Shown here one piece after another: positions 697 through 16,703 of a DNA stretch of 64,000 bases. The translations under genes were made by a program, and so were the position numbers. Every line of letters begins with the position of its first letter. The stretch's first letter is position 1. The notes below the pieces were generated by a model. The model searched no databases, had not been told where the DNA came from, and was given only the letters and a program-made list of their open reading frames with translations. Where the stretch lies: NCBI GenBank assembly GCA_019638845.1, contig JAHBSZ010000002.1:558001-622000 (forward strand), in the 5' to 3' direction. This DNA comes from Salinibacterium sp. (GTDB taxonomy: Bacteria; Actinomycetota; Actinomycetes; Actinomycetales; Microbacteriaceae).

Positions 697-2031
697 TCAA
701 GCGAGAACGTCGAGGCCGGTGTCGACCTGTGATGAGAGCGACGCTGTGCGGATGCCCGTGGCTGCGGCCGCGGCACCGGATTCGCTCCCGCGGAGCACTG
801 GGGTGAACTCCCGTGGAGCGTTGTCGCGCCCGGAAGGCTGGTTACCGGACGAGAGGTCGAGCGTCGCTTGACCACCGGTACCGGAAAGGTCTCGTCGCAG
901 GTCAGTCATGATCGACTTGATAGCCTCACGAGCTTGTTCGGTTGGGGCGATGAGCTCGATTCGCATGTTTTCGCCGCTCACGTGCGCACGCACGGCGACG
1001 GGGCCGAGATTGTCCGGCGTGACCTGAATGGTGATGGTATGCGTTCCGTCACCGAAGGAGCGAAGCCCCTGAATGGGACGGCTGAGCTGTCCGACGAGGT
1101 CGGGCGCCTGGGCGCGGGCCGGCGCAGCGGGAGCCGCGACCTCGTCGGGGGTCTGAAGTGCCGTCACGACGGGTGTCGCGACAGGAGTTGCCGCCACCGG
1201 GGCAGTGGCCGGGGGTGGAGTGGGCGCGACATCGGCGGATGCGGTGGCGCTGGTTGACCGGGCCGTTGTGGCCGGAGCATCCTTGGCCGAAACGGCGGAG
1301 AGTGCGCTACTGGCCGCCTCCGTCTCCGCGGCGGTCGATCCCGTCGGAGTGGTCACGAGAAGAGGAACCGGCGCCGCGACCACTACGGGAACGCCATCCG
1401 CAAGGGGCGCGGCGACAGCAGCGCTGCCGTCGGTGCTGGCGGCCGCATCCGCGTCATCGGCCTTTGTAGGTTTCGTCTTCGTCTCGACGACAGCGTCGGA
1501 GGTAGCAACTGCGGCGGCCGCCGGGGCGATCGAGCCGTCGAGTGCTGCCGCCAAAGCGACGGGCGAGCCCTCGACGGGGACTGTCGGTGCCGATGTGCTC
1601 ACCCCGCTCGTGGCGGCGGCGGGCGCGGGTTCTGTCCCGTCCGACACCACAGCGGTCGCCACAAGGTCGGGGGTCACCGCTGTGGTGATCGCGGTGGCTG
1701 TCGGTGCCGCATCCGGTGTCTCCGCGGCTGTCGCATCCGCCAGCGTGGGCGTCGCCGTCGAGGTTGGCGACGATTCCGGCGCAACAACAATGGAGAGCGC
1801 GGGGGTGGTGGCAGCGGGTAGTGACGCCTCCCCCGTCGTCGTAGAGGCGGTCGTCGATGCGGATGACGTCGTGGCGGCGGGCGAAGCAGAGACCGTCGAA
1901 TCGACAAGCGACGACACGGCACTGTCGAACTCCGCAGCGAAGAGAGCCGGATCGGTGGACTCTCCCTTGGCGCTCGACCCGGACGTGTCGGGGGCGACCG
2001 ACGCGGGGGCGCTCGGGGCGACGGTGCTCAT
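697..2031 (-). CDS. fliK: Flagellar hook-length control protein FliK
   Basis: 444 residues. FliK is the secreted ruler that stops hook growth and switches the export gate to filament substrates. The first roughly 300 residues are very rich in Ala, Thr, Ser and Pro, a low-complexity ruler. The C-terminal domain (about 315-400) has the Flg_hook signature: ITIQVTPDNLGPVAVRAHV, then ENMRIELIAPTEQAREAI. The ATG start overlaps the TGA of the upstream hydrolase gene (ATGA), indicating translational coupling. The low-complexity region produces long spurious ORFs on the other strand, which I do not accept. Confidence 0.92.
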   Translation of the reverse strand: MSTVAPSAPASVAPDTSGSSAKGESTDPALFAAEFDSAVSSLVDSTVSASPAATTSSASTTASTTTGEASLPAATTPALSIVVAPESSPTSTATPTLADATAAETPDAAPTATAITTAVTPDLVATAVVSDGTEPAPAAATSGVSTSAPTVPVEGSPVALAAALDGSIAPAAAAVATSDAVVETKTKPTKADDADAAASTDGSAAVAAPLADGVPVVVAAPVPLLVTTPTGSTAAETEAASSALSAVSAKDAPATTARSTSATASADVAPTPPPATAPVAATPVATPVVTALQTPDEVAAPAAPARAQAPDLVGQLSRPIQGLRSFGDGTHTITIQVTPDNLGPVAVRAHVSGENMRIELIAPTEQAREAIKSIMTDLRRDLSGTGGQATLDLSSGNQPSGRDNAPREFTPVLRGSESGAAAAATGIRTASLSSQVDTGLDVLA

Positions 2032-2657
2032 GAAATGCTCCTAGTCAGAATGGCGGCTTGCGCGTTGATGAGGGCCTGCAGCGCATCGGAGGTGGACATC
2101 GCGGTCGTGGACTTGGCGGGTGCGTCTGGGGCAACTCGGCGAATGGTCGCGATGTCCGAGTCGTCGAACCAGATCTTCTGTTCGGTGACCGTGCGCCCCT
2201 CAAAGGGCGCGTGAATGACGTTGCCATTGCCCGAGTAGATGACGATATGAGCGCCGCCGTCGAGCACGATGAGGTCGCCCGGCTTCGCATCGGCGAGCTT
2301 GCCGACTTCCGTGCCTGCAGTCATTTGCTCGTCCATGCTGCGACCGACGGTGATCCCGGCGTCGCCGAGTGCTTTCTGCACAAGGCCCGTGCAGTCGATT
2401 CCCGAAGAACTAGTTCCACCGAACACATACGGCACGCCCTCGTACTTCCCCGCCGCCGCGACAATTCCTGCGCCGGTCGCGGTGGTGGTGCTCGCCTGAT
2501 TCGCCTCGTCTTGGGCTTGAAGGGCTGCGATGAGTTTCGCAAAGAGCTCCTGCGACGTTGAGGTACTCGTCGTCGTCGCACTGGCGCGGCCCGCGAGTTG
2601 ATCAAACGTGGTCTGGATGCGCTGGATCGAGACCATCGAATCGGTGGTGACGGTCAC
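2028..2657 (-). CDS. NlpC/P60 family peptidoglycan hydrolase inside the flagellar operon
   Basis: 209 residues from a GTG (2655-2657) that overlaps the fliJ stop as GTGA and follows GGGGAGGG. The N-terminal 70 residues are helical and Ser/Thr rich (LFAKLIAALQAQDEANQ). The C-terminal NlpC/P60 domain has the catalytic Cys in GIDCTGLVQKAL, the His in GGAHIVIYSG and a third polar site at HAPFEG. Such enzymes cut peptide bonds in the cell-wall stem peptide. There is no signal peptide, so export through the flagellar apparatus itself is likely. By position it is the probable replacement for FlgJ-type muramidases, opening the wall for the rod; that role is inference. Confidence 0.85.
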   Translation of the reverse strand: MTVTTDSMVSIQRIQTTFDQLAGRASATTTSTSTSQELFAKLIAALQAQDEANQASTTTATGAGIVAAAGKYEGVPYVFGGTSSSGIDCTGLVQKALGDAGITVGRSMDEQMTAGTEVGKLADAKPGDLIVLDGGAHIVIYSGNGNVIHAPFEGRTVTEQKIWFDDSDIATIRRVAPDAPAKSTTAMSTSDALQALINAQAAILTRSIS

Positions 2658-3088
2658 TGTTCGCCCTCCCCATTCGCTACATGCCACGCTCGCGACGACA
2701 GGTCATCGAGCAGCAGCTGTTCGTCGCGCAGTTCTTCGGCGCGCTTTCGCTCTTCGAACCTCTCCTCGAGCTTCTCGAACCCGAGCGACTTGCGGTGGGC
2801 ATCCGAGTGCGCGGCGACAGCCTTGTCGACCTCCGCAGCGTTTGCCTTGTCGACCTCGCCGAGCTCCGAGAGCATGCTCGCGGACGACGCGCGCGTTGCC
2901 GCTATCGACGCCAGTGACGCATGGGCGGTCGGATCTTCATGGCCTTCGGCAAGCGTTCGGCGAATCCGTCGAGTACGGGCAAGGCCCACCGCTTCGCGAT
3001 CGCGGGCTGAGTTGAGTTCCGCCGCGCGCTGGTCTTCTTCCAGTTTGCGCAGGCGAAGGAGTCCCGCGAGTGAGAACTGGGCGCTCAT
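2654..3088 (-). CDS. fliJ: Flagellar export chaperone-like protein FliJ
   Basis: 144 residues from the ATG at 3086-3088, which overlaps the fliI stop (ATGA). The protein is an almost continuous charged helix beginning MSAQFSLAGLLRLRKLEEDQ, with heptad-like runs to the C-terminus, the two-helix coiled-coil look of FliJ/YscO stalk proteins. FliJ inserts in the centre of the FliI hexamer and links ATP hydrolysis to the export gate. Sequence identity in this family is always low, so the call leans on length, coiled coil and the fliG-fliH-fliI-fliJ order. A longer upstream reading would run into fliI and is not supported. Confidence 0.85.
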   Translation of the reverse strand: MSAQFSLAGLLRLRKLEEDQRAAELNSARDREAVGLARTRRIRRTLAEGHEDPTAHASLASIAATRASSASMLSELGEVDKANAAEVDKAVAAHSDAHRKSLGFEKLEERFEERKRAEELRDEQLLLDDLSSRAWHVANGEGEQ

Positions 3089-8361: not shown

Positions 8362-8712
8362 TTACCTCATCGCCGCGCGTACGTAGTTGAACTGGGCGCT
8401 TGCGGCATTCGAAGCGAACTGAAAGCGGAGCACCGTGTCGATGTTCGAGAGGGTCTCGGTGTCGAGGTTGACGTTGTTTCCGTCGAGCCGAGTGGGGTCG
8501 AGCGACACTTTGGTGGTTGGCGCAACTTCGCCGCTGCCATTCTTGACCGAGGCAGCAAGCGCATCCTCGAAGGAGACGCGTTGGGCTTGATAACCAGGGG
8601 TGTTGACGTTCGCGATGTTGTTGGCGATGGCGCGCTGACGTGCGGCAAGACCATCCAGCGCACTGGTAAGTGCGTTCATGGTGACCGAATCGAACACGGA
8701 GTTCCGTTCCAT
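8362..8712 (-). CDS. flgB: Flagellar basal-body rod protein FlgB
   Basis: 116 residues. FlgB is a proximal rod protein and the first gene of the operon. The N-terminal rod motif reads RQRAIANNIANVNTPGYQAQ, and the short C-terminus ends FNYVRAAMR. The start ATG at 8710-8712 has no good Shine-Dalgarno sequence (GAG directly abuts it). That fits translational control through the structured leader described at 8730-8770. Transcription probably starts near 8772 from the flagellar promoter at 8779-8805. Confidence 0.94.
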   Translation of the reverse strand: MERNSVFDSVTMNALTSALDGLAARQRAIANNIANVNTPGYQAQRVSFEDALAASVKNGSGEVAPTTKVSLDPTRLDGNNVNLDTETLSNIDTVLRFQFASNAASAQFNYVRAAMR

Positions 8713-8729
8713 CTCAAGATGACAAGAAC

Positions 8730-8744
8730 GGCCGATCCGTGGCC
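8730..8744 (-). promoter_or_regulatory. Leader hairpin of flgB with ACGGA in the loop (CsrA-site-like)
   Basis: On the transcript this is GGCC-ACGGATC-GGCC: a four-pair stem holding ACGGA in the loop, about 17 bases before the flgB start. CsrA/RsmA proteins bind ANGGA displayed in a hairpin loop, with consensus near CANGGAUG. This is the second of two such hairpins in the leader. Function is inferred. Confidence 0.5.
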
Positions 8745-8755
8745 AATGGTTAAGT

Positions 8756-8770
8756 GAGCTATCCGTGCTC
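8756..8770 (-). promoter_or_regulatory. First leader hairpin of flgB with ACGGA in the loop (CsrA-site-like)
   Basis: Transcript reading GAGC-ACGGATA-GCTC, a four-pair stem with the same ACGGAT loop as the hairpin at 8730-8744. It begins only a base or two after the start site predicted from the promoter at 8779-8805, so the mRNA would open with this structure. Confidence 0.5.
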
Positions 8771-8778
8771 TGTTGTAG

Positions 8779-8805
8779 CTATCGGCGGATTCGTTGGCGC
8801 CGTTA
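8779..8805 (-). promoter_or_regulatory. Flagellar (sigma-28-type) promoter of the flgB operon
   Basis: Reading on the minus strand: TAAC (8802-8805), exactly 15 bases, then GCCGATAG (8779-8786). The classical sigma-28 (FliA) consensus is TAAA-N15-GCCGATAA, so 10 of 12 positions match with perfect spacing. The same arrangement precedes fliC and flgN, and the window encodes a flagellar sigma factor. Confidence 0.8.
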
Positions 8806-8837
8806 GCACTTTCTTCAAAAACAACCCGAACTCAGTA

Positions 8838-9155
8838 CTAGCCTTCGACGTCGAGGTACGCCGCTTGGTGTCCCCGCACCGGTTCAGCAGCCTTGATCGC
8901 GGCGAGATGATCACCGGTCTTTCGGCGAGTTTCCTCGAGCGCTTCAAGTGCGATGCGTTGCCGGTCGATGAGGTCACGGACCGCATGCGCGTACTCGTCG
9001 GGCAACGGGCCGATCATCGTGGGGGGTGACCAATCCGCCGAAGCGATACGACCGCCATCGTCGAGCGCCTCCCCCGACGTGAGACGAGCAAGATCGCCTT
9101 CCAGCTCATTCATGATGAGACGCCAGGAGGCGTTGACTTCACTTCGATCAGGCAT
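8838..9155 (-). CDS. Small helical protein after fliS, possible FliT-like flagellar chaperone
   Basis: 105 residues if it starts at the ATG at 9153-9155, which overlaps the fliS stop by 8 bases; a longer reading would run backwards through fliS and is rejected. The protein is mostly helical (VNASWRLIMNELEGDLARL, then a charged C-terminal helix DLIDRQRIALEALEETRR). I do not recognise a family motif. Its place as third gene after fliD and fliS is where many bacteria keep fliT, the chaperone of FliD, and its size fits. That assignment is inference from context. Confidence 0.6.
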   Translation of the reverse strand: MPDRSEVNASWRLIMNELEGDLARLTSGEALDDGGRIASADWSPPTMIGPLPDEYAHAVRDLIDRQRIALEALEETRRKTGDHLAAIKAAEPVRGHQAAYLDVEG

Positions 9156-9594
9156 AGCCGAGATCGCCGTTCGGCTGCACTTCGTGACGCTCCGTCGCTT
9201 GCGCTGCGACGATCGCCGCTGCTTCGTGCCACGTCTGGCGAAGCGGTTCGAGAATCGAGATGACCTCCCGAGTGCGTTCGATCGAGTGCTCGACGTTGGC
9301 ACTGACCAGCTTCGTCGACGAGAACAGGTAGATCGCGAGAAGATTCTGACCGCCGTCCCACCGCTCCACATCAAGCGTGCCGGCGAGCTCCGCGACGATA
9401 TCTTGAGCGTGGATCAGGTAGCCGGATGCTCGGCCCCAATTCTGCTCGGACTGAGCTGCCTCAGCGCGCTGCAAGTCGAGCATGAGCCTGTCGAAGAGCA
9501 TCGTCAGAAGACGGTTGGGGGATGCCGAGAGAATCGCATCCTGGTTGTACTGTGCCCGCGCGAGGCGCGGATCCTGGGTCATCGTCATGATCAT
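9148..9594 (-). CDS. fliS: Flagellin export chaperone FliS
   Basis: 148 residues from the ATG overlapping the fliD stop (ATGA). Internal ATGs 6 and 12 bases later are also possible, and AGGA sits before the first of them. FliS binds the disordered C-terminal tail of flagellin in the cytoplasm until export. The family pattern is present: YNQDAILSASPNRLLTMLFDRLMLDL near the N-terminus and NLLAIYLFSSTKLVSANV in the middle. It is co-transcribed with fliD. Confidence 0.93.
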   Translation of the reverse strand: MIMTMTQDPRLARAQYNQDAILSASPNRLLTMLFDRLMLDLQRAEAAQSEQNWGRASGYLIHAQDIVAELAGTLDVERWDGGQNLLAIYLFSSTKLVSANVEHSIERTREVISILEPLRQTWHEAAAIVAAQATERHEVQPNGDLGYA

Positions 9595-10979
9595 CCTGTG
9601 CTCGTGGTCAGGGCCGCCAGTTGCGAGGTCAGCCAACTGGATTGCGCTTTGAGGTTGCTCAGTGAAACTTCGAGGGCCGAATAGGTGCGCTCAAGACTGG
9701 TGCGCTGAGCCGCGAGCCGCACATCCCAACTCGCGATCTGGTCGTTGAGCGAGGTGAGAGAGGACTGCTGGCCGGTAATCACCTGGGTGATCGTGCCGGT
9801 GTACTGGTTCGATCCGGCATCGGCGGCGGTGGCGACCCGATCGGCGATCGTCTGAAACATCGCCTGCGTTCCCGCCGGGTCGGCGGCGAGCGCGGCGGTG
9901 AACTTGGCGGAGTCGTACTCGATGCCGCCATCCTTCGTGATCGTGATGCCGATCTCCGAGGGGGATCTACCCGCAACCGGGGCTGATGCCGCCGTGAGCA
10001 GGAGGGAGTTCATTTCGCGAGCCGTGCTGTTGCCGGTGAACACACCGGCGGTGGTGACCGCTGCGCCTGTCGATGATGTGGTTTGCGAAACCACCGATTT
10101 GCTGCCGATGAAGTTGAATACGGCGGTCAGGTTGGCGACGAGGTTCGACGCGAGCGAGCTGATACCCGCGGTGTCCTTCGCCACCGAGACCGTCACCGGG
10201 GACGCTTCGACAGACGACACCGTGACAGAGAGGCCGGGCAGGATGTCGGCAAACGTGTTGGTGGACGACGTGATCACCTGTTCGGCGGCGGTGCCTGCCC
10301 ACAAGGTGACCGAGGCGTCAGCAGCACTCGTGACCGTCGCAGCGCCGGGTGCAGCGAACAGGTCAGGTGCGGTGCCCGCCGTGACATCGGCGGCAGTACC
10401 GCGAAAGACTTGGAATGCTCCAGAAGCGCCAGTGGCCGCGGAGGTCAGTTGGAGCCGATACAGCGGATCGCCAGTACCGGAGTCGGTCCCTGCCGAAACT
10501 CGAGTGGCCTTGACACCCGCGGAAGACCCGTTGATGGCATCGGCAACATCCGACATCGAAGTGGATGCCGCGGTGAGCTCGACCTTGGTGCCGTCAGAGG
10601 TGACGATCGTGAACGTCGCGGGGCTGTCGGGCCAGGCGGTCATCGCCGCAGACACGGAGACTTGAGCCTTTGCTACCGAGGTAACGCTGAGGTCGATCTG
10701 ACCCGTCGAAGAACCGGGGGCGGCGGTGACAGAAACACTGGCCGCACTCGACGTGGCGGTGAAGAGATCAACGGATGCCGGAAGAGCGGTCTTCTTCGCA
10801 AGAGATGCGAGCGAGGCCACCGAGGTGTTGAGGCCTTGGAACGCACTGACCAGAGTCTGAGTGCTCGATACCTTCGCCTTGAGCAGCGTCTGGGGCTGCG
10901 ACTCGACGGTCATGAGTTGGTTGATAAGGGACGTGGTGTCCAGCCCGCTGACGAGGCCGTCGATAGCAAGCGATCCCAT
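9591..10979 (-). CDS. fliD: Flagellar filament cap protein FliD
   Basis: 462 residues. FliD forms the cap that guides flagellin folding at the filament tip. The N-terminus MGSLAIDGLVSGLDTTSLIN and the segment LMTVESQPQTLLKAKVSS are the FliD_N signature. The C-terminal FliD domain ends in a long coiled helix (SLNDQIASWDVRLAAQRTSL) close to the terminus. The central part is Ala/Thr/Ser rich and variable. It starts at the ATG at 10977-10979 with AGGAAGGGA upstream. It has no convincing sigma-28 promoter of its own, so readthrough from fliC is possible. Confidence 0.95.
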   Translation of the reverse strand: MGSLAIDGLVSGLDTTSLINQLMTVESQPQTLLKAKVSSTQTLVSAFQGLNTSVASLASLAKKTALPASVDLFTATSSAASVSVTAAPGSSTGQIDLSVTSVAKAQVSVSAAMTAWPDSPATFTIVTSDGTKVELTAASTSMSDVADAINGSSAGVKATRVSAGTDSGTGDPLYRLQLTSAATGASGAFQVFRGTAADVTAGTAPDLFAAPGAATVTSAADASVTLWAGTAAEQVITSSTNTFADILPGLSVTVSSVEASPVTVSVAKDTAGISSLASNLVANLTAVFNFIGSKSVVSQTTSSTGAAVTTAGVFTGNSTAREMNSLLLTAASAPVAGRSPSEIGITITKDGGIEYDSAKFTAALAADPAGTQAMFQTIADRVATAADAGSNQYTGTITQVITGQQSSLTSLNDQIASWDVRLAAQRTSLERTYSALEVSLSNLKAQSSWLTSQLAALTTSTG

Positions 10980-11024
10980 GGTGTCCCTTCCTGGTTAGCG
11001 GGAAGCCATCTTCCGGGCGGTGCC

Positions 11025-11052
11025 GGCGGTTGACCCGTTAGGGCCCACCGCC
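11025..11052 (-). terminator. Hairpin downstream of fliC, possible terminator
   Basis: GGCGGT and ACCGCC arms (6 pairs) with an inner CCC/GGG pairing around a GTTA loop, about 50 bases after the fliC stop. There is no T-run, as is common in high-GC actinobacteria, so this is only a candidate for attenuating flagellin transcription before fliD. Confidence 0.4.
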
Positions 11053-11100
11053 GTCACCGCCACGGAGAATGTGCGTCAGTTCAGTTGAGTTCGACTGGGA

Positions 11101-12249
11101 CTAGCGCAGGAGCTGCAGGATGCCAGAGGTGCTCTGGTTGGCCTGGGCGAGCATCGCGGTACCAGCCTGCTGCAGGATGTTGGCACGCGTGTACTTGACC
11201 ATCTCCTCCGCCATGTCCGTGTCGCGGATTCGCGATCCGGCCGCCGACAGGTTCTCCTTCGAGACTGCCAGGTTGCGGATGACGCTCTCGAAGCGGTTCT
11301 GCTGTGCACCGAGGTCCGCGCGAGCGGTCGACACCGACGAGATGCGAGCGTCGATCGCCGTGATGGCGGCCGCTGCCGTTGTCGCGTTGGTGAAGTTGAG
11401 CACGCCGCCGGCAACAGCCGCGCTCGTACCGAAACCGGTACCAGACGAGGCATCGGTGCCTGCGGTACCGCCACCGACTACAGCGCCACCGGTGAGCGAG
11501 CTCACGACGAGCTGGTTGTTCTGGTTGACCGTCGCGCTGAGCTTGCTCTTGAAGCCGGTGTCGGCGTTGAGGGCAGTGGCGACTTCCTGAACCGTCTTGT
11601 ACGCACCCGCGGCGCCCAGCGTGACGCTGATCGTCGTGTCGGTCGTGCCGTCGGTGACGGTGAACGCCTGGGCGCCGGTCACGTCGGTCGGGGTCAGGAC
11701 GTCAAACTTCGCGCCAGCACCACCGGTGGTGAGGCCAGCAGCCAGGCCAGCGATGTTCGTGAGGTTGACGGCGATGCGGCTTGCCGCGTCACCGTTCGCG
11801 CCCACCTGGAAGCTCAGCGTGGAAGCCGAACCATCGAGCAGCTTGGTGCCGTTGAAGTCGGTGCCGCCAGCAATGCGGCCGAGCTCGGTCGTGAGCGCGG
11901 ACACCTCAGTGGTGATCGCGGCGCGCGACGTGGTGTTGTTCGAGTCGTTACCGGCCTGAACTGCAAGGTCGCGCATGCGCTGCAGGATCGTGTGGACCTC
12001 GGAGAGCGAACCTTCAGCGGTCTGGATGACCGAGATGCCGTCCTGTGCGTTGCGGGAGGCGACCGTGAGGCCACCGACCTGCGACTTGAGGCCCTCAGAG
12101 ATCGCGAGGCCTGCCGCGTCATCCGCAGCGCGGTTGATGCGAAGACCGCTGGAAAGCTTCTCCAGCGACTTGGACAGGTCATTCTGCGTGTTGGTGAGGT
12201 TGCGGTACGAGTTGTTCGCCGCGATGTTGGTGTTGATTGACATACCCAT
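11101..12249 (-). CDS. fliC: Flagellin
   Basis: 382 residues. This is the filament subunit, exported and polymerised under the FliD cap. The conserved D0/D1 ends are clear: SINTNIAANNSYRNL, SLEKLSSGLRINRAADDAAG at the N-terminus, and IRDTDMAEEMVKYTRANILQ with a final helix at the C-terminus. The Ala/Thr/Gly-rich centre (about 150-300) is the surface-exposed variable part. The start at 12247-12249 has GGAGGAAATCACC upstream. The leader carries a sigma-28-type promoter, a hairpin with a CACGGATG loop and an ACGGAGG ribosome site, a layout that suggests FliW/CsrA control. It is a single-gene unit facing left. Confidence 0.97.
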   Translation of the reverse strand: MGMSINTNIAANNSYRNLTNTQNDLSKSLEKLSSGLRINRAADDAAGLAISEGLKSQVGGLTVASRNAQDGISVIQTAEGSLSEVHTILQRMRDLAVQAGNDSNNTTSRAAITTEVSALTTELGRIAGGTDFNGTKLLDGSASTLSFQVGANGDAASRIAVNLTNIAGLAAGLTTGGAGAKFDVLTPTDVTGAQAFTVTDGTTDTTISVTLGAAGAYKTVQEVATALNADTGFKSKLSATVNQNNQLVVSSLTGGAVVGGGTAGTDASSGTGFGTSAAVAGGVLNFTNATTAAAAITAIDARISSVSTARADLGAQQNRFESVIRNLAVSKENLSAAGSRIRDTDMAEEMVKYTRANILQQAGTAMLAQANQSTSGILQLLR

Positions 12250-12257
12250 GGTGATTT

Positions 12258-12265
12258 CCTCCGTG
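12258..12265 (-). promoter_or_regulatory. fliC ribosome-binding site doubling as an ANGGA (CsrA-like) site
   Basis: The transcript reads CACGGAGG, with the start ATG 8 bases further on. The ACGGA core repeats the loop sequence of the upstream hairpin. A second CsrA site overlapping the Shine-Dalgarno is the classic repression layout; here it is inferred. Confidence 0.45.
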
Positions 12266-12280
12266 ATGTGGGCTTAACGA

Positions 12281-12302
12281 GCCGGTCCATCCGTGGTCCG
12301 GC
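12281..12302 (-). promoter_or_regulatory. fliC leader hairpin with CACGGATG at the loop (CsrA-site-like)
   Basis: Stem GCCGG/CCGGC, one A-A mismatch, then CCA/TGG, closing on CGGA. The sequence CACGGATG equals the CsrA core consensus CANGGAUG. The hairpin begins about two bases after the predicted transcription start near 12304, as in the flgB leader. Confidence 0.55.
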
Positions 12303-12310
12303 ACTGTTGA

Positions 12311-12337
12311 CATTCGGTTGTTACTGGATGAGCGTTA
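12311..12337 (-). promoter_or_regulatory. Flagellar (sigma-28-type) promoter of fliC
   Basis: Minus strand: TAAC (12334-12337), 15 bases, ACCGAATG (12311-12318). The spacing is identical to the flgB and flgN promoters and the CCGA core is kept. It gives a leader of about 55 bases. Confidence 0.72.
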
Positions 12338-12384
12338 GTGAAGTTCCCGAAAGGGGGGTCTGAGGCTGGTGTTACTGGTGTGAC

Positions 12385-13209
12385 TCACGAGACTGCCGAT
12401 TGTTCCCACCCGGTGTCCACGAGGCCGTCGACCATTCCAGCCTTGGCGTACTCGGCGACACGAGCGAGATATGCAGCACGGCGCACAGGCGCGATGCGAG
12501 ATTCGGCGGCAGCGGCGGCGGCGGCGCGCTCATCCTCCGCGTAGTGAGTGGAGAGACCATCACGAATGAGGCGCACTGCCTCCGAGCGCTTCTGCGATAC
12601 CGCGGAGTGGGTAAAGCCCAGTTCCTCCGCGATCTCCTTGACCGTGCGCTCCTCGAAGTAGATCTGCTCGATGATGTAACGCATGTCGTCGGGCAGTGCA
12701 GCAACGGATGAGCGCACGAACACCGTGCGTTCCTGCGTGATGACCGTCTCTTCGGGGGTCGAGTTGTCGGCGATGAGGAGGTCTGTGTTGACTTCGTCGA
12801 GAGTGCTCACCGTGCGAGATGCGTCAGTCAGGGCATCCGTTGCCGTTTGCCTGTCAACACCAAGAGTCGAGGCGAGCTCGTCGACCGTGGGCACGCGGCC
12901 GAGCGAAGCGGTCAGCGTCTCCTGGACCGCAAGGGTCTCCCTGATTCGTCGACGAGCACTGCGTGTTGCCCAGTCATCCGTGCGCATGGTGTCGGCGAAG
13001 GAGCCGAGAATCCGGCGACGGGCGAAGGCCCCGAACGGAACACCGAGGGTCGGGTCGAAGGCATCTGCGGAGGTCACGAGCGCCAGAGCGCCGGCGGCAG
13101 CGAGATCATCGCGAGAGAGGTGCGTCGCTCGCGCGCAGAGGTCACGGACGAGGTAGCCGACCAAAGGCAGATTGTCCACAACGAGTGCGTTGCGTTGGTC
13201 TCTATTCAC
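12385..13209 (-). CDS. fliA: Flagellar RNA polymerase sigma factor, FliA type
   Basis: 274 residues from the GTG at 13207-13209, with GGGGAG 6 bases upstream. Region 2 spans about 10-85 (VDNLPLVGYLVRDL, DAFDPTLGVPFGAFARRRIL), region 3 about 95-140 (GRVPTVDELASTLGVD), and region 4 about 175-225 with the helix-turn-helix TVKEIAEELGFTHSAVSQKR. Compared with the usual 230-250 residue FliA, about 45 residues follow region 4 (Ala-rich, then YLARVAEYAKAG), of unknown role. Three promoters of sigma-28 shape in this window are its likely targets. No flgM anti-sigma gene is visible. A longer upstream reading has no ribosome site. Confidence 0.88.
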   Translation of the reverse strand: MNRDQRNALVVDNLPLVGYLVRDLCARATHLSRDDLAAAGALALVTSADAFDPTLGVPFGAFARRRILGSFADTMRTDDWATRSARRRIRETLAVQETLTASLGRVPTVDELASTLGVDRQTATDALTDASRTVSTLDEVNTDLLIADNSTPEETVITQERTVFVRSSVAALPDDMRYIIEQIYFEERTVKEIAEELGFTHSAVSQKRSEAVRLIRDGLSTHYAEDERAAAAAAAESRIAPVRRAAYLARVAEYAKAGMVDGLVDTGWEQSAVS

Positions 13210-13367: not shown

Positions 13368-13427
13368 ACTATGGGTGCGCGTGTCGTCTCGGACAAGATC
13401 CGATTGCCGTGATATGCCGTTTCGCGC

Positions 13428-13454
13428 TAACGGGAGGCGAAAACTTGCCGACAG
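13428..13454 (+). promoter_or_regulatory. Flagellar (sigma-28-type) promoter of flgN-flgK-flgL-fliW
   Basis: TAAC (13428-13431), 15 bases, GCCGACAG (13447-13454): the same form and spacing as the flgB and fliC promoters. Transcription would start near 13461, leaving an 80-base leader before the flgN ATG at 13541. Confidence 0.75.
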
Positions 13455-13540
13455 TTCTCTGTATGCCCAATCGAACGCTCTATGCGAAGATCGAGCCAGA
13501 GAGGGTCCGCCCCGAGCAACCGGAAGGAGACCACTCGCGC

Positions 13541-15447: not shown

Positions 15448-16332
15448 ATGGTCGAAAGAATCACCAGCCAGATGCTGTTGCAGACTTCGCAGCGCAATAT
15501 GCAGTCGTCGATGTCGGCGCTCGCTCGCCTGCAGTCGCAAGCGGGAACCCAGAAACTCATCTCGAAACCGTCCGACGACCCGGCCGGCGCCGGCGAATCG
15601 ATGCGTATCCGGGCAGACCAGCGCGCACTCACGCAGTACAGCACCAATATCACCGACGGACTGTCGTGGTTGTCGACTGCTGACGACGCTCTCTCGTCCG
15701 CAACGGACACCATGCAGGCAGTGCGCAATCTCGTCGTGCAGGGGGCGAACTCCGGCTCGCTCAACGCCGCGTCGCGCGAAGCAATCGCCACCCAGCTCGA
15801 TTCGCTCAAGGCTGCATTGCTCTCCACCGCGAACACCACGTACGCGGGACGCTCGATCTTTGCCGGAACCTCTGACGCCGGTGTGGCCTTCGACGCCACG
15901 TACACGTCGACAGCGATCCCCGGTAATGGCGTGGAACGTCGCGTAAGCCCGACCGCCACGGTCAAGGTCGACGTCGACGGCGTGGCCGCCTTCGGTTCCG
16001 GCGCGACCTCAACCTTTGCCCTTATCGACCAGATCACCTCGGACCTGCGGGCCGGCATTGACATCACCCCGCATCTCTCTGGCGTCGACAGCGCGCTCTC
16101 TTCGATCCTCGGAGAGCAGTCCCGAGTAGGATCCCGCTACAACCAACTCGAGACCAGCAAGGAGCTGAACATGTCACAGTCCGGCTCCCTAGAGAGCCAA
16201 CGGGCCAGCGTGGAGGACGTGGACTTGAGCAAGGTAATCCTGCAACTAAAGACTCAGGAAGTCGCGTACCAGACTGCCCTCGCGGTTACTGCACGTGCGC
16301 TGCAGCCAACGCTCATGTCGTTCCTCTCATGA
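15448..16332 (+). CDS. flgL: Flagellar hook-filament junction protein FlgL
   Basis: 294 residues. FlgL is the second junction protein and has flagellin-like ends. The N-terminal helix ITSQMLLQTSQRNMQSSMSA is followed by SKPSDDPAGAGESMRIRADQ, the counterpart of the flagellin RINRAADD segment. The C-terminal helix SVEDVDLSKVILQLKTQEVA resembles flagellin D0. Its stop overlaps the fliW ATG (ATGA). Confidence 0.94.
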   Translation: MVERITSQMLLQTSQRNMQSSMSALARLQSQAGTQKLISKPSDDPAGAGESMRIRADQRALTQYSTNITDGLSWLSTADDALSSATDTMQAVRNLVVQGANSGSLNAASREAIATQLDSLKAALLSTANTTYAGRSIFAGTSDAGVAFDATYTSTAIPGNGVERRVSPTATVKVDVDGVAAFGSGATSTFALIDQITSDLRAGIDITPHLSGVDSALSSILGEQSRVGSRYNQLETSKELNMSQSGSLESQRASVEDVDLSKVILQLKTQEVAYQTALAVTARALQPTLMSFLS

Positions 16333-16703
16333 GTGGCCTCGTCTCTTTCATCACGTCGCCACCCGGCCTCTCCCCGTTACGCAATTTCGATCTCGCACCC
16401 GTGGCTGAAGCGGACGGCCTGTACACCCTGCAGTCACTCGACGCACCGGATGTGCGGCTCTTCGTCATCGATGCACCCGTCTACCTCCCGCACTACAACC
16501 CCGAGGTCAGCGTGCAACAGCTCGAGTCCATCGGTGCCACCGAAACCTCCGAGGTCAGGGTTCTCGTTGTGACGACCCTCGATGAGGCCGGACCTTCCGC
16601 GAACCTCATGGCCCCCATCCTCATGCACGCCACCAGCGGGGAGGCGGCACAGGTCATCCTCGACGGGGACGAATGGCCGCTTAGGGTGCTGCTGGGCGCC
16701 TGA
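16329..16703 (+). CDS. fliW: Flagellar assembly factor FliW
   Basis: 124 residues. FliW binds both flagellin and CsrA; when flagellin leaves through the export gate, free FliW sequesters CsrA and relieves repression of flagellin translation (known from Bacillus). Family features here: ISFxxPG-like FITSPPGLSPLRNF near the N-terminus, VRLFVIDAPVYLPHYNPEVS in the middle, and the VLVVTTL strand. It is translationally coupled to flgL. In many genomes csrA follows fliW; here the next gene faces the other way, so csrA must be elsewhere. The gene overlaps the convergent hypothetical by 23 bases. Confidence 0.92.
   Translation: MSGLVSFITSPPGLSPLRNFDLAPVAEADGLYTLQSLDAPDVRLFVIDAPVYLPHYNPEVSVQQLESIGATETSEVRVLVVTTLDEAGPSANLMAPILMHATSGEAAQVILDGDEWPLRVLLGA

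Follow-up and report, generated by a model that had tools for sequence, protein, structure and literature searches.

The flagellar genes of a Salinibacterium sp. (Microbacteriaceae, Actinomycetota) raise the question of whether the messages of flgB, at the head of the rod operon, and of the flagellin gene fliC are both controlled by the RNA-binding protein CsrA and its antagonist FliW. The genes lie in a 64,000-nucleotide (nt) stretch of contig JAHBSZ010000002.1 (G000:C6:558001-622000 of a 2.96-Mb genome), hereafter the window. The original prediction, drawn from the letters of this stretch, placed three small stems with ACGGA in their loops in the two leaders and proposed FliW/CsrA control of both operons. 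All three stems are found on the minus strand (8756-8770, 8730-8744 and 12281-12302), and, judged from their sequence, they and the fliC ribosome site are very probably CsrA binding sites. The best overall explanation, given a probability of roughly 0.8, would be that both messages are CsrA targets, with fliC repressed in the manner of Bacillus subtilis hag and flgB bridged at its 5' end. We infer CsrA binding, the direction of control and the FliW input from the sites, their conservation and covariation, and the presence of csrA and fliW.

Predicted CsrA sites before flgB and fliC

The two leaders contain the following features.

8801..8806, minus strand: flgB sigma-28-like -35 box CTAACG, read from the sequence
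8780..8785, minus strand: flgB sigma-28-like -10 box CCGATA, 15 nt after the -35 box
8756..8770, minus strand: H1, GAGC[ACGGATA]GCTC, predicted CsrA site at the mRNA 5' end; perfect 4-bp stem, 7-nt loop
8730..8744, minus strand: H2, GGCC[ACGGATC]GGCC, predicted CsrA site; perfect 4-bp stem, 7-nt loop
12333..12338, minus strand: fliC sigma-28-like -35 box CTAACG, read from the sequence
12312..12317, minus strand: fliC sigma-28-like -10 box CCGAAT, 15 nt after the -35 box
12281..12302, minus strand: fliC hairpin GCCGGACC[ACGGAT]GGACCGGC (GCCGG-A-CC[ACGGAT]GG-A-CCGGC), predicted CsrA site
12258..12264, minus strand: fliC Shine-Dalgarno sequence ACGGAGG, predicted second CsrA site

Both leaders had been described as beginning with a hairpin close to the transcription start and the fliC ribosome site as reading ACGGAGG; the latter stands at 12258-12264, and sigma-28-like promoters lie just upstream of both leaders, from which the start is deduced. 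H1 begins 10 nt past the -10 box, near the +1 expected from the promoter motif. An additional ANGGA near flgB, AACGGAAC (8708-8701), had been overlooked; it lies ahead of the probable GTG start.

Single ANGGA hairpins occur in the window about as often as chance predicts (21 vs 18.4 expected, 60 shuffles). Two hairpins within the 110-nt flgB leader arose in 0/5000 shuffles, with 0.012 single hairpins expected, and this result together with conservation rejects a chance origin of the pair. Curated Rfam models applied to 8500-12600 with E up to 1 gave no match at the flgB or fliC leader, so that a known Rfam element there is rejected; the scan returned two matches, both sub-threshold microRNA models at 11006-11072. 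An inverted repeat at that position, between fliC and fliD, is probably the fliC terminator.

A strict hairpin scan of family leaders found the element in 46/46 flgB leaders, 41 of them with two, and in 33/48 fliC rows, 2 of the 33 being FlgL-like, while random 270-nt windows contain one hairpin in 3.4% and two in 1.1% of cases. No hairpin was returned for fliD (0/46), fliS (0/45), fliE (0/48), flgC (0/48), fliF (0/48) or fliW (0/44), and hairpins were rare before flgN (1/41) and fliA (4/45). Further CsrA targets in the flagellar cluster are thus rejected, none being consistent in these eight leaders (0-4 of 41-48). The flgL matches (3/53) look like fliC cross-matches, and the sole flgK leader obtained, not counted among the eight controls, has no hairpin. 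The four fliA-like sigma gene leaders carry their ANGGA hairpin at -114 to -124, two of them also at -179, which is not consistent enough to call. flgN has a promoter like those of flgB and fliC, the third such (CTAACG-N15-CCGACA, window 13427-13464), which is followed almost directly, by eye, by the likely ATG at 13464; the flgN message would be nearly leaderless and leave no room for CsrA hairpins, in contrast to flgB and fliC.

Conservation of the sites and distribution of csrA and fliW

The original prediction had been staked beforehand on stems and GGA conserved in related leaders and on a csrA gene in the genome. Conservation of both stems and GGA extends far past Microbacteriaceae and is accompanied by compensatory changes. 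The family set consists of 48 Microbacteriaceae flgB leaders (46 including the window, plus L058 and L059), and both hairpins are present in 48/48. Among 31 leaders from elsewhere in the class, sorting by reading gave 26 canonical pairs (L083 with a G.U in H2), three variants (L061, L064, L070) and two leaders without the pair (L060, L066); the pattern script alone reports some pair in 30/31. The named-locus set comprises the best 80 of at least 422 relatives and is hence skewed to close ones; it includes Leifsonia, Microbacterium, Arthrobacter, Sinomonas, Frigoribacterium, Curtobacterium, Cellulomonas, Georgenia and Actinoplanes, and the nearest named FlgB among the matches listed belongs to a Leifsonia metagenome-assembled genome (MAG; 87%). 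Both hairpins occur in 77/80 named loci, or in 72 of the 75 non-identical leaders. The misses are L130, whose H2 arm is broken yet which scores 30.1 bits with a covariance model, L158, a MAG with fliW and no csrA match, and L192, Mobiluncus mulieris, which has csrA and fliW. FlgK-like false flgB matches (L065, L071, L085, L093, L099) and the weak FlgB match G181 were excluded. Two records titled Acidobacteria MAGs (L158, L183) have Microbacteriaceae-like flgB loci, and their titles look wrong.

In anchored logos of the 48 family leaders, GGA is invariant in H1 and in H2 (48/48 each), and the A before N is kept in 46/48 and 48/48; stem columns hold 1.46-2.0 bits, N 0.54 and 0.70, and the flanks 0.01-0.68. 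The conserved loop is exactly ANGGA, with only N and the flanks free. The spacing between the H1 and H2 GGA is likewise narrow, with a median of 23 nt and a standard deviation (SD) of 1.3 in the family, a median of 22.5 and SD of 2.1 in other class leaders, a range of 21-26 in the named set and 26 in the window. The sigma-28-like pattern is found in 69/78 flgB leaders, in which the end of the -10 box precedes the H1 GGA by a median of 16 nt (SD 1.3). The distance from the H2 GGA to an aligned codon varies (50-82 in the family, 55-102 in others). An ANGGA no more than 20 nt from the flgB start occurs in 10/48 family leaders, the window included, and in 7/28 others, four with ACGGAG. In most leaders the layout appears to be two sites at the deduced 5' end without ribosome-site overlap.

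Covariation was scored on 74 rows, the 78 leaders with the pair minus L061, L064, L066 and L070; a hexaloop H2 puts a row in another register, and such rows were scored as broken. The H1 arms occur as the compensatory sets GAGC/GCTC, GGGC/GCCC and GGAC/GTCC, and in 7 rows a G-C pair of H2 has changed to C-G with both sides compensating. The share of paired cells is 72% vs 29-38% when slid, two-sided changes number 47 cells vs a shuffle mean of 33 (1/500 shuffles as high), and the covariation score is 0.098 vs 0.066, a value reached by 0/500 shuffles. A covariance model built from 12 non-family leaders gives the flgB leader of the window 40.8 bits (E 6.4e-9), the next best hit in 110 kb being 14.7 bits (E 0.046). 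The same model finds the out-of-class leader L111 at E 7.6e-4, which keeps loops AAGGAT and ATGGAT and has H1 arms that are both unusual yet mutually paired by eye. An element CTC[ANGGAG]GAG in a larger stem before flgB is seen in L117, L118 and L121, three genomes of the out-of-class family f54; in L117 and L121, GGT[ACGGAW]ACC stands about 20 nt upstream of it.

For fliC, 145 leaders were compared, representing 127 distinct hairpins; several genomes have more than one flagellin, a few named loci repeat genomes, and the FlgL-like rows L053 and L055 were left out. The hairpin core CA-N-GGA-N-G is present in 143/145 (misses L066 and L081) and ANGGA at the ribosome site in 138/145. Pairs 3, 5, 6 and 7 form in 98-104 of the 127 distinct hairpins vs shuffled means of 60-77, and pairs 3-7 each exceed all 500 shuffles. 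The distance between the hairpin GGA and the ribosome-site GGA has a median of 29 nt (SD 3.2, range 22-42, 143 leaders). Among named loci the hairpin occurs in 60/62, and in the other two the end of the locus truncates the leader.

csrA is missing from the window, as had been noted, and lies elsewhere in the genome at C6:546928-547083 (PF02599, 81.7 bits; product 88 amino acids). It had been expected just left of base 1, which is only roughly right: it does lie to the left, at a distance of 11 kb. Among the solved homologues of the product are 2JPP, an RNA complex of RsmE, and 5DMB, a CsrA from a FliW complex; the product itself has residues L4 and R44 and a C-terminal extension. fliW is present in the window, as had also been noted. 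An even draw of 150 family genomes shows csrA, flgB and fliW in exactly the same 46, with flagellin in the same 46 plus six weak matches, one above cut-off. Among 296 class genomes, flgB was found in 36, csrA in 37 and both in 34 (flgB without csrA in G172 and G181; csrA without flgB in G157, G253 and G386). Two genomes of the same genus (G082, G145) have neither csrA, flgB nor fliW. Gain or loss seems to affect flagella and their regulator jointly. In 41/48 family genomes flgB is followed on its own strand, 11-38 kb downstream, by csrA; outside the family this holds for 3/29 counted, G172, G360 and csrA-only genomes being left out.

The genes themselves are placed as follows.

8362..8697, minus strand: flgB; probable GTG start at 8697-8695, beginning VFDSVTMNALTS; TIGR01396, 76.7 bits, neighbours in frame
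11101..12249, minus strand: fliC (flagellin), ATG at 12249
16329..16703, plus strand: fliW, the expected CsrA antagonist; PF02623, 76.7 bits

flgB opens a one-strand flagellar run (flgB-flgC-fliE-fliF-fliG-fliH-fliI ... flhB-flhA-flhF-like-csrA) that csrA closes, the gene names being partly assigned by reading translations. The listed frames overlap or sit at most 159 nt apart, the flgD-flgE junction at the window edge being left out. Type IV pilus-like genes (PilB, PilT and PilC by reading; L002 1-4700) begin 116 nt after csrA on the same strand. An NlpC/P60-like peptidase frame, also assigned by reading, occupies window 2028-2687 between fliJ and fliK; it may be a wall-cutting rod enzyme, and the lineage is reported, in the available text of PMC10746217, to be without FlgJ.

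Mode of control and competing explanations

At fliC, a CsrA dimer would hold the upstream hairpin in one pocket and ACGGAGG in the other, blocking translation, and FliW not occupied by unexported flagellin would remove CsrA, by analogy with B. subtilis hag. At flgB, the dimer is predicted to bridge H1 and H2, which are spaced by 23 nt (26 nt in the window) at the 5' end of the message. In the window, 32 nt separate the end of H2 from the start codon (family range 23-55; 22-61 over 76 leaders), so that H2 does not cover the Shine-Dalgarno sequence, and the absence of a fixed relation between the hairpins and the ribosome site argues against simple occlusion. CsrA would more likely work here through mRNA stability or a competing leader fold, although H2 might hinder the ribosome to some extent in the shortest leaders. 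The predicted FliW/CsrA control of both operons is upheld by the sites, their conservation and csrA, with the qualification that the flgB layout is not that of classic repression: control is likely, and repression is not implied because neither flgB hairpin overlaps the ribosome site.

Several observations weigh against this interpretation. The fliC stem of the window has one A.A mismatch, and a third ANGGA near the start accompanies the flgB pair in the minority of leaders counted above, the window among them. L060 (G179), L066 (G171) and M. mulieris have csrA without flgB hairpins; G172 (80% complete) holds the hairpins and gives no csrA match; within the family, no flagellated genome serves as a clean control without csrA. 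Of 20 out-of-class leaders, one (L111) has a clear double site and 2 (L112, L116) a suggestive one. The number of paired cells alone beats shuffles weakly (20/500), further pair types do not stand out (430/500), and a +3 slide scores 0.095 against the observed 0.098, because the inner H1/H2 stems hardly vary. When whole leaders are folded (142 leaders), the local flgB hairpins are poorly predicted: the median closing-pair probability is 0.01 for H2 and 0.14 for H1, and GGA is unpaired with medians of 0.21 and 0.42.

CsrA could either raise or lower flgB expression. Activation has about an even chance and is somewhat likelier than repression, because double sites at the 5' end activate E. coli flhDC and because the H2 loop seems able to pair with the flgB start unless covered by CsrA. 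The segment concerned is the following.

8695..8700, minus strand: TCCGTG over the flgB GTG start, complementary to H2 CACGGA (8741-8736); possible long-range pairing

The minimum-energy fold of the window leader pairs this TCCGTG with H2. In 8 leaders, that of the window among them, TCCGTG stands at -3, across the start codon. At codons 4-5, where the window does not have it, TCCGTG is used in 65 of the 105 leaders with Ser-Val there vs 247/2213 Ser-Val pairs in six other flagellar genes of the fetched loci. It is commoner when the H2 loop letter is C (55/76 vs 10/29 otherwise; Fisher p 6e-4; family alone p 0.003) and shows no association with the H1 loop letter (p 0.65). H2 loops with G or A at N have no matching complement, and those with T have the matching TCCATG in 0/23. 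Phylogenetically independent pairs are suggestive only: among 19 supported pairs of a larger tree, a mean of 5.3 go the same way, 0.2 the opposite way and 13.5 show no difference (sign test p median 0.06, range 0.016-0.375), a FlgB-only tree being too weak with 7 supported pairs. L060, L061, L064, L066, L070 and anchor-rule failures (7/149 in folding) were left out of folding and codon tests. Forcing the hairpins costs more than in downstream-shuffled controls in 114/141 leaders (median 6.4 vs 3.9 kcal/mol); ribosome-site opening on forced hairpins exceeds controls in only 80/141, so that no firm claim of a translational switch is made. Under synonymous shuffling of early codons, pairing of H2 with the coding part averages 3.26 vs 2.38 expected pairs, lies above its own shuffled mean in only 65/142 leaders, and falls in the top tenth in 27/97 leaders with loop letter C vs 6/45 otherwise; in the window, H2 barely pairs past the start codon. 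The skew in codon use, together with partial covariation, gives a hint, with moderate statistical support, that the H2 loop may pair with the flgB start. A CsrA-operated switch running opposite to fliC, in which the H2 loop CACGGAT would pair with (A)TCCGTG and close the flgB start until CsrA bridged H1 and H2 and opened it, is a tentative and rather unlikely extension. If it were true, free CsrA would mean more bases and no filament and FliW-bound CsrA the reverse, a single RNA-level checkpoint for rod and filament; with csrA downstream of flgB on one strand in most family genomes, the flgB leader might then also feed back on CsrA.

Repression of the flgB operon, whether through mRNA stability, Rho, ribosome hindrance from H2 or bridging to the weak ribosome-site ANGGA, is a lesser but substantial possibility, under which a backlog of flagellin would lower the rod operon and flagellin jointly. 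A review describes repression as prevalent for CsrA targets (PMC7652899), the shortest leaders leave only 22-23 nt between H2 and the start codon, and the ANGGA within 20 nt of the start would offer a partner; that third site is, however, confined to a minority of leaders, and the H2-coding distance varies while H1 and H2 stay about 23 nt apart, unlike the tight hairpin-to-ribosome-site spacing of fliC. It is improbable that the leader serves mainly as a CsrA sponge like the Campylobacter flaA leader: titration of CsrA by flaA mRNA is documented (PMC4894983) and two perfect 5'-end hairpins away from the ribosome site would suit such a role, but flgB mRNA is expected to be far scarcer than flagellin mRNA, and the enriched TCCGTG codons and competing downstream structure would be left unexplained.

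Explanations without CsrA fare worse. A bare stem near the expected +1, where H1 lies, can protect an mRNA, and the hairpins might bind another RNA protein or merely stabilise the 5' end, the GGA match being incidental; this is very unlikely, as stability requires stems but no invariant ANGGA loop, fliC repeats this loop and has an ANGGA ribosome site besides, and csrA tracks flagellar genes almost perfectly. Their fixed place behind the promoter and their form as short inverted repeats could also mark DNA operators of a flagellar transcription factor at the transcription start. The centre is, however, asymmetric and conserved as strongly as the arms, the arms change in compensating pairs (H1 of L111 included), and fliC has a different stem around the same loop; on the compensatory arms and the asymmetric loop this explanation, the least probable of all, is rejected. 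CsrA binding to both leaders remains the preferred interpretation.

Relation to known systems and significance

The closest parallel for fliC is B. subtilis hag, a flagellin mRNA with two CsrA sites, one over the Shine-Dalgarno sequence (PMC7652899). The number and placing of sites and the presence of fliW and csrA in the genome are the same; the present case differs in phylum, in its hexaloop hairpin with a covarying stem and in the marking of the flgB operon as well. E. coli flhDC has two CsrA sites near its 5' end, and CsrA protects it against RNase E (PMC7652899). Like flgB, it starts flagellar assembly, but flgB heads a rod/export operon rather than encoding a master regulator, and a sigma-28-like promoter precedes its sites, which are spaced by 23 nt. 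The E. coli system also relies on the CsrB/C RNAs and is not known to use FliW. For E. coli ymdA/moaA and Pseudomonas phz2, activation by CsrA/RsmA has been reported or proposed, through the opening of structures that hide the ribosome site (PMC7652899), whereas flgB has only a candidate H2 loop-start pairing with moderate statistical support.

The suggestion that the circuit extends beyond flagellin gains flgB as a predicted target, although the principle is already known: C. jejuni CsrA binds several flagellar mRNAs (flgI, flgH, flaG and others), with FliW as antagonist (PMC4894983). flgB differs in that it was not enriched with CsrA there (1.6x; PMC4894983). No study of CsrA targets in Actinobacteria was present among the top matches of the open-licence literature; the available text of PMC10746217 mentions CsrA and FliW a single time each, among the queries of a search in actinobacteria, and in that of PMC8602919 csrA figures as a stress gene of carbon starvation. 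The novelty lies in flgB as a target, in the architecture of its sites and in the phylum.

These observations provide sequence evidence for a FliW/CsrA circuit in Actinobacteria that reaches across the class to the operon starting flagellar assembly, with predicted sites that are small and defined to the base. The flgB and fliC operons seem, from their promoter motifs, to use the same sigma factor, so that the base-before-filament order may rest on RNA and not on promoter classes. This suggests that one RNA-binding switch may act on both stages of flagellum building in the phylum.

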